Assembly: GCA_944332715.1 (NCBI GenBank) | Contig: CALVKN010000009.1 | Span: forward strand, 1-39,969 | Length of the DNA: 39,969 nucleotides | DNA from: an uncultured Bacilli bacterium | GTDB lineage: Bacteria > Bacillota_I > Bacilli_A > RF39 > UBA660 | Reading direction: 5' to 3' | Part shown: positions 16,655-39,969 of the stretch, piece after piece | Layout: each line of letters begins with the position of its first letter | Numbering within the stretch: position 1 is the stretch's first letter | Program-made: the position numbers and the translations under genes | Notes under the pieces: model-generated | The model's input: only the letters and a program-made list of their open reading frames with translations | What the model was told of the DNA's origin: nothing | The model's database searches: none

Positions 16655-16850
16655 AAAAAGACTCTATAACTTAAGGACGGATTACCCGCGGTGCCACCTT
16701 AATTCATAGAATCTATGCTCTTTTTTCTTTAACGCAGAATTACGTATTATTTAAGATTATTTATCTTCATTAATCTTCCATTTTTAGTTTCCACCAACCA
16801 CTAAATCTCTATTAATTTCCAATTAACTACTGGAATAACCAATAATTCAT
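16655..16850 (-). promoter_or_regulatory. T-box riboswitch upstream of aspS2, Asp (GAU) specifier
   Basis: The T-box AAGGTGGCACCGCGGG is at 16700-16685 and the terminator arms run 16713-16660, ending in a long T tract. Stem I pairs well around the specifier loop: GGTTATT with AATAATC below, and GTTAATT with GATTAAT above, with AGTA on the 5' side. The 3' side of the loop reads GAAGATA, giving GAT (16765-16763) followed by A, an Asp codon. Uncharged tRNA(Asp) should therefore induce aspS2. Confidence 0.95.
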
Positions 16851-36606: not shown

Positions 36607-37971
36607 TTATTTATATTTTTTGAGCATCATATTTTGCCTCCAAGGATGATTCATCGGAGGAACATATTTATGATGTTCTTTTTTTTCTGTTTCGATTTCA
36701 CTTTCTTTTTTCATAACAGAGTCTCGATTTTCTATTTCAGTTAACTGATAGTAATGATTTTCTATTTCACACCAAAATTCTCCATCATAATTAATTATCA
36801 TAATACACTTAGTTCCTTTAGAAAAGCAAGTTACTTCTCCGGTTTCGGGATTGACAGGTATATAATATTTATAATTATTACTTATACATGATGCGTTATC
36901 TATTATTTTATCTTTTTTTTCAGAGATAATTAATTTTAGTTCTTCTTCCGTATATGTGTTTTTCTTCATCAATGATTTGTTTTTATCTATTGCATAAGAA
37001 AATCTTTTGTTCATTTTTGGAATAAAAACATTATTTAAATAATCATTAGCTTTATCAATGTCAGTAATTCCTTCATGCCTTAGTTCAGCAATTAATCTGT
37101 TTTTAAACGTTTCATTTTCTCTTTCAACATGTGCCTTAGCAGTTGGAACACTTGTAGTTACTAATGTAATATTTAATTTTTCACATACTTTACCAAATTG
37201 AGTTAAAAACTTCTTTCTATCTACTTCTTTTACATTATTAGCAATGAATGTGCTACGATTATCCGCTTTTATTTTAGCTGGTATTCCATAATTAATTATG
37301 ATATGAAATAATAAAACATAATAGCCTCTAGTTATTTCTTCAAATTCAAACCATCCAAATAAAACTTTCTTAGTTGCTTTATCAACAGCGAGATGTAAGT
37401 ATGATACGATATCGCCAAACCATATTTTTTCACACGCATCCATTTGAACTTCTTGACCAAAAACATACAAATTGCTTGATCTTCTAGTATGTGCTTTTTC
37501 ATAAGATATTATTCTCGATTGATATAAATCGACCTTTTTACTTGATAGATTATCTTCTTTATTTGATTGTATATCTTTAATAGCTTCTTTATATGCTTTT
37601 AGTGTTTTTTTGTTTGCAATGGGCGATATAATATCATCTCTTGTAAATGTCTTTAACATAGTATCGTATGATATATCATATTTACCAAAAACAAAGTCTT
37701 CATAAAAATGTTTAAAATTAAAATCATAGAATTCTGTAAGATATAATTCTTCTAACTCCTTAATTAATTTGTCATTTTTTTTATTTAAACTATGTTTACC
37801 ATGATTACCATGAATAAATCCTTCTTCGCCTTGTTCTTTAAAAATTTTCTTTAATCTATACACCTGCCTTTCTGTTAGATTTAATAGTTGCATCGATTCT
37901 TTTATTGTAATTTTTTTCGATACTAAGCTTGAAATAATTTCATATTTATTTTTCTCGTATTCTTTTAACAT
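36607..37971 (-). CDS. ISNCY/IS1202-type DDE transposase
   Basis: A 454-aa DDE transposase. The N-terminal region carries one or two HTH domains (IKESMQLLNLTERQVYRLKKIFKEQGEEGF). The RNase H-like core follows, with first Asp in VFGQEVQMDACEKIWFG, second Asp in AKIKADNRSTF and Glu in AHVERENETFKNRLIAEL. The C-terminal 80 residues carry a small beta-domain (YYIPVNPETGEVTCFSKGTKCIMIINYDGEFWC) and a charged tail. No stop or frameshift interrupts the frame, so it is probably active. Start at 37971 with GGAGG buried in a hairpin. Confidence 0.9.
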   Translation of the reverse strand: MLKEYEKNKYEIISSLVSKKITIKESMQLLNLTERQVYRLKKIFKEQGEEGFIHGNHGKHSLNKKNDKLIKELEELYLTEFYDFNFKHFYEDFVFGKYDISYDTMLKTFTRDDIISPIANKKTLKAYKEAIKDIQSNKEDNLSSKKVDLYQSRIISYEKAHTRRSSNLYVFGQEVQMDACEKIWFGDIVSYLHLAVDKATKKVLFGWFEFEEITRGYYVLLFHIIINYGIPAKIKADNRSTFIANNVKEVDRKKFLTQFGKVCEKLNITLVTTSVPTAKAHVERENETFKNRLIAELRHEGITDIDKANDYLNNVFIPKMNKRFSYAIDKNKSLMKKNTYTEEELKLIISEKKDKIIDNASCISNNYKYYIPVNPETGEVTCFSKGTKCIMIINYDGEFWCEIENHYYQLTEIENRDSVMKKESEIETEKKEHHKYVPPMNHPWRQNMMLKKYK

Positions 37972-37976
37972 TAAAA

Positions 37977-38003
37977 TACCTCCTCTTTGAATACGAGGAA
38001 GTA
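37977..38003 (-). promoter_or_regulatory. Hairpin masking the transposase ribosome-binding site
   Basis: TACTTCCTC (38003-37995) pairs with GAGGAGGTA (37985-37977), a 9-bp stem with one G-U pair and a 9-nt loop; the 3' arm holds the GGAGG Shine-Dalgarno. A TATAAT lies just upstream, so transcripts from the element's own promoter or read-through would both carry it. Confidence 0.65.
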
Positions 38004-38017
38004 TTATAACAAACCAC

Positions 38018-38122
38018 TGACATTTTCACTAATTTTTAATATTTTTTTAGTTCTTAATTTCACTGACATTTTCACTAATTTTTGGTTTTAACAAGACATG
38101 ACATTTTTGCAAATTTTTCACA
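38018..38122. repeat. Right IS end with three subterminal repeats
   Basis: Read inward on the minus strand, GTCA occurs at element-end positions 21, 56 and 102 (38102, 38067, 38021), almost the same spacing as the left end. Two copies read ATTAGTGAAAATGTCAGTG exactly. The third overlaps the transposase promoter region, so transposase binding could repress its own gene. Confidence 0.8.
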
Positions 38123-38148
38123 GGCAAAATAGTGAAAATTCTGTGAAG
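38123..38148. repeat. Right copy of the IS target-site duplication
   Basis: Identical to 36313-36338. It begins immediately after the IS end and stops one base before the ATPase stop codon. Confidence 0.9.
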
Positions 38149-39012
38149 TTACATATTTTTTTCAAAATCTGACTTATTATTCTTAAAAAACTCATAATAT
38201 ACTTGCATATTTTCTAACTCTGTCCAACTTTTTGTAACACACGGTGTACTGTCTAAATCATAAATAACCGCATCTTTAATACTAAGTAAAAATGGTGAAT
38301 GAGTTGCAATAATGAATTGAGAACCAAAAAATCTAGCAGAATCCTCAATAAACCTAGCAAGTTTTAATTGCATACTAGCAGACATACTATTTTCTGGTTC
38401 ATCTAAAATAAATAAGCCATTATCGGTTATATAGGAAGAAAAATACATTAAAGCGGATTCCCCATTAGATTGTTCTTGAATATCTTTAGCAATTATTCTA
38501 CTTCGAACAAACTTTGACATTGTCATTTTCCTAGCATCAACAGCATCTACCATTTCTTGATAATCTTTAATGTCTCTAGCAGGTCGGTACTTACTGCTTA
38601 CATATTCCTTAGTTACTTCACTTCTTCTGTTATAAAGTCCATGATTGATTCTTCTTACATTAAGTAAATAATCAAATATATCTTCACTACTTATTGCTTT
38701 AATTTCATAAGGAATATTATTAGTCATTTCATATTTACACAGTCTTAAATATGAATCAAACCTCTCCCCCTTAGCAAATGGATTATTGCGTGATGCGCCA
38801 ATACTCTCAGCAATAATATTTAAAATCGTTGATTTACCACTACCATTACCACCATAAAATATCGTAATCGGAGCAAAATTAATTACCTTTAACTCTTTAT
38901 TTGGAAATATATTATATGGATATATTCCATTTATATATGTTCTATTGTCAAACATCAAAACATTTTCTTCGGTATCTCTATCAGGCAATTCAAAACTTTT
39001 TAAATATAGCAT
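38149..39012 (-). CDS. AAA-family ATPase (AAA15/AAA21, SMC-like)
   Basis: A 287-aa ABC-type ATPase. Walker A is FYGGNGSGKSTIL near residue 56, a signature-like SNGESALMYF lies near 200, Walker B is GLFILDEPENSMS with the catalytic Glu, and the H-loop is IIATHSPFLLSI. These soluble ATPases resemble single-domain relatives of OLD/RecF-type proteins, which often occur in defence or DNA-repair islands, but no partner nuclease is visible here. The stop codon lies immediately next to the IS target duplication, so the IS has not broken the gene. Confidence 0.88.
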   Translation of the reverse strand: MLYLKSFELPDRDTEENVLMFDNRTYINGIYPYNIFPNKELKVINFAPITIFYGGNGSGKSTILNIIAESIGASRNNPFAKGERFDSYLRLCKYEMTNNIPYEIKAISSEDIFDYLLNVRRINHGLYNRRSEVTKEYVSSKYRPARDIKDYQEMVDAVDARKMTMSKFVRSRIIAKDIQEQSNGESALMYFSSYITDNGLFILDEPENSMSASMQLKLARFIEDSARFFGSQFIIATHSPFLLSIKDAVIYDLDSTPCVTKSWTELENMQVYYEFFKNNKSDFEKNM

Positions 39013-39190: not shown

Positions 39191-39218
39191 TCATAACCGG
39201 GTGGTCGAAGATTCACCA
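39191..39218 (+). pseudogene. Degenerate tRNA-Ile2 fragment
   Basis: TCATAACCGGGTGGTCGAAG matches the anticodon-loop to variable-arm part of the intact tRNA-Ile2 (one change), then jumps from ATTC to ACCA, losing the rest of the T arm and acceptor stem. It is in the opposite orientation to the intact gene. Confidence 0.7.
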
Positions 39219-39232
39219 AAAACTTGTTTTTA

Positions 39233-39279
39233 TAGATGCGATTGACTTAGCAAGTGTTCAAGTCCCTTTTAAGCAACAA
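39233..39279 (+). pseudogene. Degenerate tRNA-Leu fragment
   Basis: TAGATGCGATTGACTTAG aligns to the D-arm/anticodon segment of tRNA-Leu(UAG) (TAGACGCGATAGACTTAG), then GTTCAAGTCCCTTTT aligns to its T arm; the 3' half of the anticodon stem and the variable arm are deleted. A CAACAA ends it in place of CACCA. It follows the tRNA-Ile2 fragment in the same order as the intact pair. Confidence 0.7.
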
Positions 39280-39306
39280 AAAAGAAGTTTCAAAGCGAAA
39301 CCTCTT
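39278..39306 (-). terminator. Terminator of the tRNA-Ile2/tRNA-Leu transcript
   Basis: A 10-bp stem (39297-39306 with 39282-39291, one G-U) with a 5-nt loop, followed by T residues, about 14 bases after the tRNA-Leu CCA. Confidence 0.8.
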
Positions 39307-39319
39307 AACTTCTAAAAAT

Positions 39320-39404
39320 TGGTGCGAGTAAAGGGACTTGAACCCCCACAGAATAATCCAATAGATCCTAAGTCTATCGCGTCTACCAATTCCGCCATAC
39401 TCGC
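39320..39404 (-). tRNA. tRNA-Leu (anticodon UAG)
   Basis: A complete tRNA with encoded CCA. The acceptor stem GCGAGTA/TACTCGC, D arm (GGCGGAATTGGTAGACGC), anticodon stem ATAGA/TCTAT around loop CTTAGGA (anticodon TAG), a long class II variable arm and GGTTCAAGTCC T arm all fold. It shares the transcript with tRNA-Ile2, 15 bases upstream. Confidence 0.96.
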
Positions 39405-39419
39405 AAAAATTAATAAAAA

Positions 39420-39496
39420 TGGTGGACCTCGAAGGACTCGAACCTTCGACCGCCCGGTTATGAGCCGGATGCTCTAACCAACTGAGCTAGAGGTCC
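39420..39496 (-). tRNA. tRNA-Ile2 (anticodon CAU, lysidine-type)
   Basis: A complete 77-nt tRNA with encoded CCA and acceptor GGACCTC/GAGGTCC. The anticodon loop CTCATAA has CAU. The body resembles Bacillus tRNA-Ile2 (GGACC..., TCATAACCG) rather than elongator or initiator tRNA-Met, so C34 is expected to become lysidine (TilS) and read AUA. In an AT-rich genome with many ATA codons this tRNA is important. Confidence 0.9.
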
Positions 39497-39506
39497 ATGC
39501 AAGATA

Positions 39507-39535
39507 ATAATATCACAATAAGCCAGTTGTTGCAA
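39507..39535 (-). promoter_or_regulatory. Promoter of the tRNA pair
   Basis: TTGCAA (39535-39530), a 17-base spacer and TATTAT (39512-39507), ten bases before the tRNA-Ile2 5' end. Confidence 0.75.
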
Positions 39536-39562: not shown

Positions 39563-39583
39563 TTGCTCAGTTGGTAGAGCAGC
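39563..39583 (+). pseudogene. Isolated tRNA D-arm-like fragment
   Basis: TTGCTCAGTTGGTAGAGCAG matches a canonical tRNA D arm (AGCTCAGTTGGTAGAGC) on the plus strand, but no acceptor, anticodon or T arm surrounds it. It lies opposite the tRNA promoter region and upstream of it. Confidence 0.6.
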
Positions 39584-39594
39584 CCAAAATAAAA

Positions 39595-39624
39595 GATTCA
39601 AGGAACCCCCTTAAACCTTGAATC
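39595..39624 (-). terminator. Terminator of the truncated gene at the window edge
   Basis: A perfect 9-bp stem (39616-39624 with 39595-39603) with a 12-nt loop and T-rich tail, about 10 bases after the stop codon. Confidence 0.85.
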
Positions 39625-39633
39625 ACTAACAAA

Positions 39634-39969
39634 TTATTTATCTTGTAACATATTTAATAAATCAATTTTAAACATGTCTTTAGAAGCATTTGCTTTAGAT
39701 ATCATAATACCTTTATAAGTTGTAAGTTCTGATCTATGTCCTTCTAACAAGATATTTTCTGGTGTAATAGTTTCAAGAACTACTACTTCATCCTTCTTAT
39801 GAACTGTATAAATTAACTTAACATCACCATGGATTTGAGCAAACATCTTATCGCTTGGTAACTTAAGTTCATAAGTTTCAGTACCATTTTTCTTATTTAC
39901 TGAAACAAGTTCACCTACAAACTTACCATTTCTTAAAGCTGGATAATAATCAAAATTTAATTTTTTGAA
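39634..39969 (-). CDS. C-terminal part of an unrecognised protein (truncated by window end)
   Basis: An open frame of at least 111 residues runs to the window edge and continues beyond it. An internal Met at 39846 is not the start; the frame is open for 41 codons before it with good codon use (for example PALRNGKFVGELVSVNKKNG). The visible part is beta-rich, with alternating strands (YELKLPSDKMFAQIHGDVKLIYTV, VVVLETITPENILLEG) and ends in a helix (DMFKIDLLNMLQDK). No family recognised. Confidence 0.75.
   Translation of the reverse strand, partial: FKKLNFDYYPALRNGKFVGELVSVNKKNGTETYELKLPSDKMFAQIHGDVKLIYTVHKKDEVVVLETITPENILLEGHRSELTTYKGIMISKANASKDMFKIDLLNMLQDK

Follow-up and report, generated by a model that had tools for sequence, protein, structure and literature searches.

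Inverted triplications are already known from yeast, cancer and Salmonella; judged from general knowledge and a limited literature search, what is new here is the proposed recurrent version at tRNA operons, accompanied by nuclease genes. Models of triplication begin at short interrupted inverted repeats (PMC4689423). Tandem inversion duplication (TID) in Salmonella, as far as the work of Kugelberg et al. (2010) is represented in PMC4689423, is a bacterial rearrangement with alternating copies and palindromic junctions at short interrupted inverted repeats, and needs no replication origin. On the triplication reading, the tRNA operon described here would be comparable in these respects, its junctions at short inverted repeats being candidates. 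In contrast, the same account places the Salmonella TID under selection for amplification, whereas at the tRNA operon there are only remnants, the unit is ~0.25 kb, and a kept middle copy would amount to an inversion. Small inverted triplications (SIT), reported in cancer and in yeast lacking Rad27 (rad27 mutants), measure ~148/160/148 bp with a 30 bp spacer, the size class of the tRNA operon; their stability has been tested in E. coli, where they are unstable and are removed with involvement of SbcCD (PMC13334657). SIT revert to the original arrangement, while for the tRNA operon a loss of the outer copies in natural bacterial lineages is proposed. Origin-dependent inverted triplication likewise begins at short inverted repeats, but requires a replication origin inside the unit, which is not expected in a tRNA operon. 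Finally, template switching makes nearby reverse-complement copies and homogenizes the arms of inverted repeats (PMC8794818, PMC8604942). The template-switch mutations described in RNA genes are usually short and lie within one gene (PMC8794818), unlike the present case, in which tRNA parts lie outside the gene and the operon itself is turned.

The window (the whole 39,969-nucleotide stretch analyzed, from a contig of an uncultured Bacilli bacterium) ends in a minus-strand operon composed of promoter, Ile2-type CAT tRNA, tRNA-Leu(TAG) and terminator hairpin, with antisense tRNA pieces around it:

39191-39218, plus strand: antisense tRNA-Ile2 remnant with positions 34-57 and then CACCA, without the T-loop and 3' acceptor strand
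39233-39279, plus strand: antisense remnant of tRNA-Leu, positions 20-37 fused to 62-75, with a degraded 3' end
39282-39306, minus strand: operon terminator hairpin, close to the symmetry center of the downstream inverted repeat
39320-39404, minus strand: intact tRNA-Leu(TAG)
39420-39496, minus strand: intact tRNA-Ile2(CAT), labeled tRNA-Met by ARAGORN
39507-39535, minus strand: operon promoter, TTGCAA-17 nt-TATTAT
39565-39584, plus strand: antisense remnant of the tRNA-Ile2 5' part, positions 10-30
39593-39619, minus strand: terminator hairpin of gene X, directly upstream of the tRNA operon
39634-39969, minus strand: C-terminal part of gene X, a conserved neighbor used as orientation landmark

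The CAT tRNA at 39420-39496 is taken to be of the Ile2 type from knowledge of tRNA family sequences, and gene X has no Pfam match. The left Ile2 remnant lies past the terminator and runs from the anticodon loop into a T-arm and acceptor that are mostly gone (TCATAACCGGGTGGTCGAAGATTCACCA, 39191-39218); tRNA positions 34-57 occupy 39191-39214 (TCATAACCGGGTGGTCGAAGATTC), and CACCA then extends to 39218. The tRNA-Leu remnant combines positions 20-37 (TAGATGCGATTGACTTAG, 39233-39250) with positions 62-75 (GTTCAAGTCCCTTT, 39256-39269), and lacks the 3' strand of the anticodon stem and the variable arm. An earlier note on this DNA listed these two left pieces but overlooked a third (GCTCAGTTGGTAGAGCAGCC, 39565-39584; Ile2 10-30), located on the opposite side of the intact pair, upstream of the operon promoter. 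The plus-strand order is thus Ile2 3' half, Leu piece, the intact pair reversed, and Ile2 5' half. Beside the 5' Ile2 fragment of the window, no promoter of an outer copy is recognizable. The same kind of loss (the second half of an arm) had been proposed for each piece; this describes the window genome, but other species carry different deletions. Two further features of this genome are a T-box leader at window positions 16670-16846 (minus strand; Rfam RF00230, 100 bits) and a tRNA-Leu acceptor stem that reads GCGAGTA/TACTCGC here and in G002, versus GCAGGTA/TACCTGC in near relatives.

Once the intact genes are masked, nothing else on the plus strand of the 40 kb window matches as well as the fragments, which score 19.0 and 14.5 for Ile2 (next match 11.5) and 14.0 and 13.0 for Leu (against 11.0). 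An unrelated minus-strand Leu match also scores 13.0, so the second Leu piece is credible from its position and its conservation in G007 rather than from its score. The shuffled-sequence significance check for which the note had called was run: in a dinucleotide-shuffle test, both Ile2 matches and the strongest Leu match have the lowest attainable p value (p = 0.005, 200 shuffles, z 7-12), and p = 0.0033 was obtained when the Ile2 match was retested with 300 dinucleotide shuffles. The plus-strand Ile2 and Leu fragments that mirror the order of the intact minus-strand pair are therefore real.

Relatives share these remnants. Alignment of each genome's own tRNA-Ile2 to its flanks, compared with dinucleotide shuffles over 107 flanks, gives 22 antisense matches versus 1 sense match at p<=0.01. 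Clear Ile2 remnants are present in the window genome, in G007, G029, G014, G013, G020, and G023, all six of which have counterparts of the left remnant (39191-39218), and in G002, G022 (L138), and L046. They lie on both sides of the pair in the window genome, the same six relatives and the independent lineage L046, with the qualification that the remnants of the window group and the G013 group are not independent and may trace to one event. In G002 the upstream remnant is clear, and the downstream one is weaker and was read by eye. Matches upstream of the pair are to the Ile2 5' part and those downstream to the 3' part. Downstream in L138 is an almost complete antisense Ile2, interrupted by ~48 bases. 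A tRNA-Leu remnant comparable to that of the window is found in G007, and a more decayed one in G029. The argument makes no use of antisense matches at Ser, Cys, L068/L080, L090, and L147, which are either weak or single. A separate observation is that many contigs of metagenome-assembled genomes end in or at the edge of the tRNA-Ile2 of the pair (G002:C7/C49, G005:C35/C10, G028:C28/C86, G025:C50, L029, L033, L041, L049, L052). In some genomes two contigs overlap at tRNA-Ile2. Strain variation in orientation or cargo, or plain assembly breaks, may account for these contig ends.

The genus and family were searched at the DNA level, and the gene X search gave 80 loci from named genomes, mostly metagenome-assembled genomes from the gut labeled as uncultured Bacilli, Tenericutes or Erysipelotrichaceae, with one Candidatus Coprovivens. 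The frame of the genus consists of gene X, the tRNA pair with variable cargo, ireB, ruvX, DUF1292, and mltG. Gene X and the ireB-ruvX-DUF1292-mltG block are fixed, and the tRNA pair faces either direction: it is co-directional with X in the window and most of the family, and opposed to X in L122, L123, L124, L130, L138, L142, L046, L047, L055/L058, L074, L076, L148, and L151. In L139 (the same as L023) the reversal affects only tRNA-Leu, which lies 1.2 kb from tRNA-Ile2. The tree built from 55 gene X sequences requires 10 orientation changes, 8-9 of which are forced by well-supported branches, and a five-gene tree of the genus places two changes between the two orientation states. The promoter region can be aligned between sisters that differ in orientation (L031/L046 and L137/L138), and therefore the operon turned together with its promoter. 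The interval between X and ireB is also a cargo hotspot (window 36607-39012; L011, L013, L015, L139), holding an AAA_21 ATPase, an MvaI/BcnI-type nuclease and, in the window, a helix-turn-helix transposase-like gene. A DNA-methyltransferase-like ORF lies between Ile2 and Leu in L023/L139, and in L150 the two tRNA genes are co-directional and ~0.95 kb apart.

A control scan of the genome's other tRNA genes returned one strong antisense match, next to tRNA-Pro. This belongs to a tRNA-Arg(acg)-tRNA-Pro(tgg) operon (G000:C5:39700-40900; L157, L182, L248), the commonest layout of which is a P-type ATPase gene, Arg, Pro, and a conserved block, all in one direction. In G020 the operon is inverted while its neighbors on both sides are unchanged; the G000 operon faces the opposite way to the P-type ATPase gene. 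Upstream of Arg-Pro in G000:C5, Arg 14-26 is joined in antisense to the Pro 5' part; the same fusion recurs in G029, G012, G028, G014, and a second contig of G003, the main contig of which has the Arg part only. G029 has an additional antisense piece of Pro 36-48 downstream of the operon, so that antisense fragments both upstream and downstream, an arrangement in common with inverted triplications, occur in the window genome, most of its clade, L046, and the Arg-Pro operon of G029. Across ~70 other tRNA operons of four genomes, 4 antisense and 2 sense matches were obtained at p<=0.01 (171 tests each), and Arg-Pro itself supplies 2 of these 4 antisense matches. At both operons the remnants tend to end at the anticodon, which is where upstream remnants stop and downstream ones begin (Ile2 33/34, Pro about 35/36). 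A strictly sharp breakpoint was considered but not adopted: most remnants respect it, but the upstream Ile2 remnant of L129 (G020) seems to reach position 45, and the downstream antisense copy of L138 is nearly full-length.

We consider the remnants to be probably decayed parental copies of the Ile2/Leu operon, left by an inverted triplication whose net effect was inversion, and give this reading a probability of roughly 0.6. Fragments lie on both sides of the intact pair, and the survivor would therefore be the middle copy, which is the inverted one in a triplication. In an ancestor, the operon would have had the opposite orientation with respect to gene X. Short inverted repeats at the operon ends would have led to an error during replication, probably by fold-back or template switching, and so to a small inverted triplication in the order parental copy, inverted copy, parental copy. 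The outer copies would then decay, because palindromes are unstable and a single working copy suffices, and the middle inverted copy would be kept intact. The outcome would be a turned operon with a 3'-half fossil past its terminator and a 5'-half fossil past its promoter, and similar events would have recurred at the Ile2/Leu and Arg/Pro operons of the genus. We infer the intermediate with three copies, the fold-back, the location of the junctions, the order of losses, and any causal role of the nuclease.

Several details bear on this scheme. In L046, the stretch that separates X from the reversed pair contains a promoter-like sequence and then an Ile2 3'-half remnant, which is how a parental copy should look after an internal deletion. 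In L031, where the pair is not inverted, TTTCAAG-TAATG-CTTGAAA (read by eye) lies immediately upstream of the -35 element and is the type of repeat that triplication models need (PMC4689423). This repeat and the terminator hairpin near the downstream symmetry center are candidate junctions, the exact junctions being eroded. The earlier suggestion of an old, decayed inverted duplication agrees with the antisense fragments shared by relatives and with the varying orientation, but is incomplete, as fragments on both sides imply three copies, of which the middle one was kept. Simple inversion would leave no remnants. Inversion by staggered breaks (duplication associated with inversion) was rejected, since the two ends would then lie the other way round. 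Against triplication, fragments are missing from most species in which the pair is inverted, Arg-Pro remnants also occur where the operon is not inverted (G012), and remnant ends near the anticodon at both operons are not predicted by random decay. No intact triplication turned up when 386 genomes of the family were searched for exact patterns of the two junctions, although short-read assemblies would tend to miss one. With remnants in place of three full copies, the locus is proposed as a relic of an inverted triplication rather than a member of the class.

The alternative that survives best, although we hold it to be rather unlikely, has a mobile nuclease gene whose edges are marked by the remnants: genes of the MvaI/BcnI type would insert at tRNA anticodon loops and split a spare tRNA copy, with the operon flip as a by-product. 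In G000 an MvaI/BcnI-family nuclease gene (PF15515, E 1.7e-42) adjoins Arg-Pro, and a different PF15515 subgroup adjoins Ile2-Leu in several relatives (e.g. L015). Searching the whole genus gave 14 PF15515 genes or gene pieces, distributed over 12 of the 30 genomes. All but one adjoin one of the two scarred operons (13/14, two of them via contig-end remnants), although these counts are not independent, as each operon may have gained its nuclease gene once and each of the two groups may represent one old insertion. Six are at Ile2-Leu (G022, G023, G029, G013, G020, G014), five at Arg-Pro (G000, G007, G014, G020, G009), and two at contig ends, beside an Ile2 remnant in G019 and beside the Arg-Pro fusion in G003; near the single exception, G006:C8:34635-35333, neither a tRNA nor a remnant of one was found. 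At Ile2-Leu the nuclease gene has the antisense 3' half at its 5' end; at Arg-Pro of G014 and G003 it has the antisense 5' half of Pro at its 3' end. These are matching halves in one geometry, and, together with remnant ends close to the anticodon at both operons, favor such an insertion. However, at no PF15515 locus examined do tRNA halves flank both ends of a single nuclease gene, the Ile2 remnants of the window genome, G002, and L046 lack a recognized nuclease gene at the site, and cargo-free pairs are flipped too (L124). A nuclease recognition site within the tRNAs (putative CCSGG, in the Ile2 anticodon stem) was rejected, as tRNA-Pro has no such site.

The presence of two different subgroups at two scarred operons is not easily put down to chance; the nuclease may be a cause or another guest of a fragile site. 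Insertion of an MvaI/BcnI-type gene beside both operons may provoke the proposed triplications or help to break the spare copies. It is tempting, if speculative, to picture these nuclease genes as small mobile units that settle at tRNA operons via the anticodon region, each arrival or loss being accompanied by an inverted operon copy, with antisense halves and flipped operons left as marks; we regard this as rather unlikely.

A second alternative dispenses with inversion in this lineage: two independent short template switches would have copied each operon end backwards beside itself. The process is known both to make and to homogenize reverse-complement copies (PMC8794818, PMC8604942), and it would also account for fossils that track the live tRNA. 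The 3'-half fossils fit the tRNA-Ile2 form of their own lineage better than other forms (GATC in L120, L121, and L127; GGGC in the window genome; own variants in L046 and L138), with L128 as an exception, in which the fossil is still GGGC and the live tRNA is GGAC. Within this one genus, two adjacent base pairs of the Ile2 anticodon stem switch jointly, and the antisense fossil follows (L120, L121, L127, L138 versus others). Nevertheless, two matching events would be required, and again in L046 and at Arg-Pro; the recurrent orientation changes are left unaccounted for, and the antisense copy of L138 is nearly full-length. We therefore judge this alternative improbable. To the triplication reading, later template-switch correction or recombination must be added, because the 3'-half fossil tracks changes in the live tRNA; the fossils may be young, corrected by template switching (PMC8794818), or moved as whole blocks.

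Two further origins, attachment remnants of an ordinary integrase-borne element and block replacement, in which recombination would have brought in the entire block from a relative, appear very improbable. The varied cargo of the locus would suit either, and the live Ile2 of the window genome has the GGGC form, against GATC in near relatives. A tRNA-targeting integrative element would leave direct repeats and an integrase, but the repeats are inverted and no integrase was recognized among the genes examined near the tRNA pair. Insertion into a plus-strand tRNA was rejected, since both the repeat orientation and the order of halves are wrong: a 3' half lies on the left and a 5' half on the right, and such an insertion would leave them the other way round. 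The attachment remnants proposed in the earlier note thus fail in their usual form, while retaining some merit in the concentration of nuclease genes beside the two scarred operons. Block replacement would only relocate the flip elsewhere without explaining it. A functional antisense or tRNA-mimicking RNA, also raised in that note, is scarcely credible: although several species retain recognizable tRNA parts that to some extent follow the live tRNA, the plus-strand fold is no better than that of shuffles (z -0.56), promoter-like sites are at shuffle level, deletions are species-specific, and the fragments lie outside the promoter-terminator unit.

How a small operon reverses its direction in a bacterial chromosome, with neither recombinases nor long repeats involved, is seldom seen directly. 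The two operons offer such a series in nature, with related species in the before, after and scarred states. The triplication reading predicts that inverted triplications would appear as rare variants at both operons in long-read data. Antisense tRNA fragments beside tRNA genes, as seen here, are not necessarily regulatory RNAs or attachment sites. With one nuclease family concentrated at just these two operons, a connection between local inversions and selfish nuclease genes can be put to the test.
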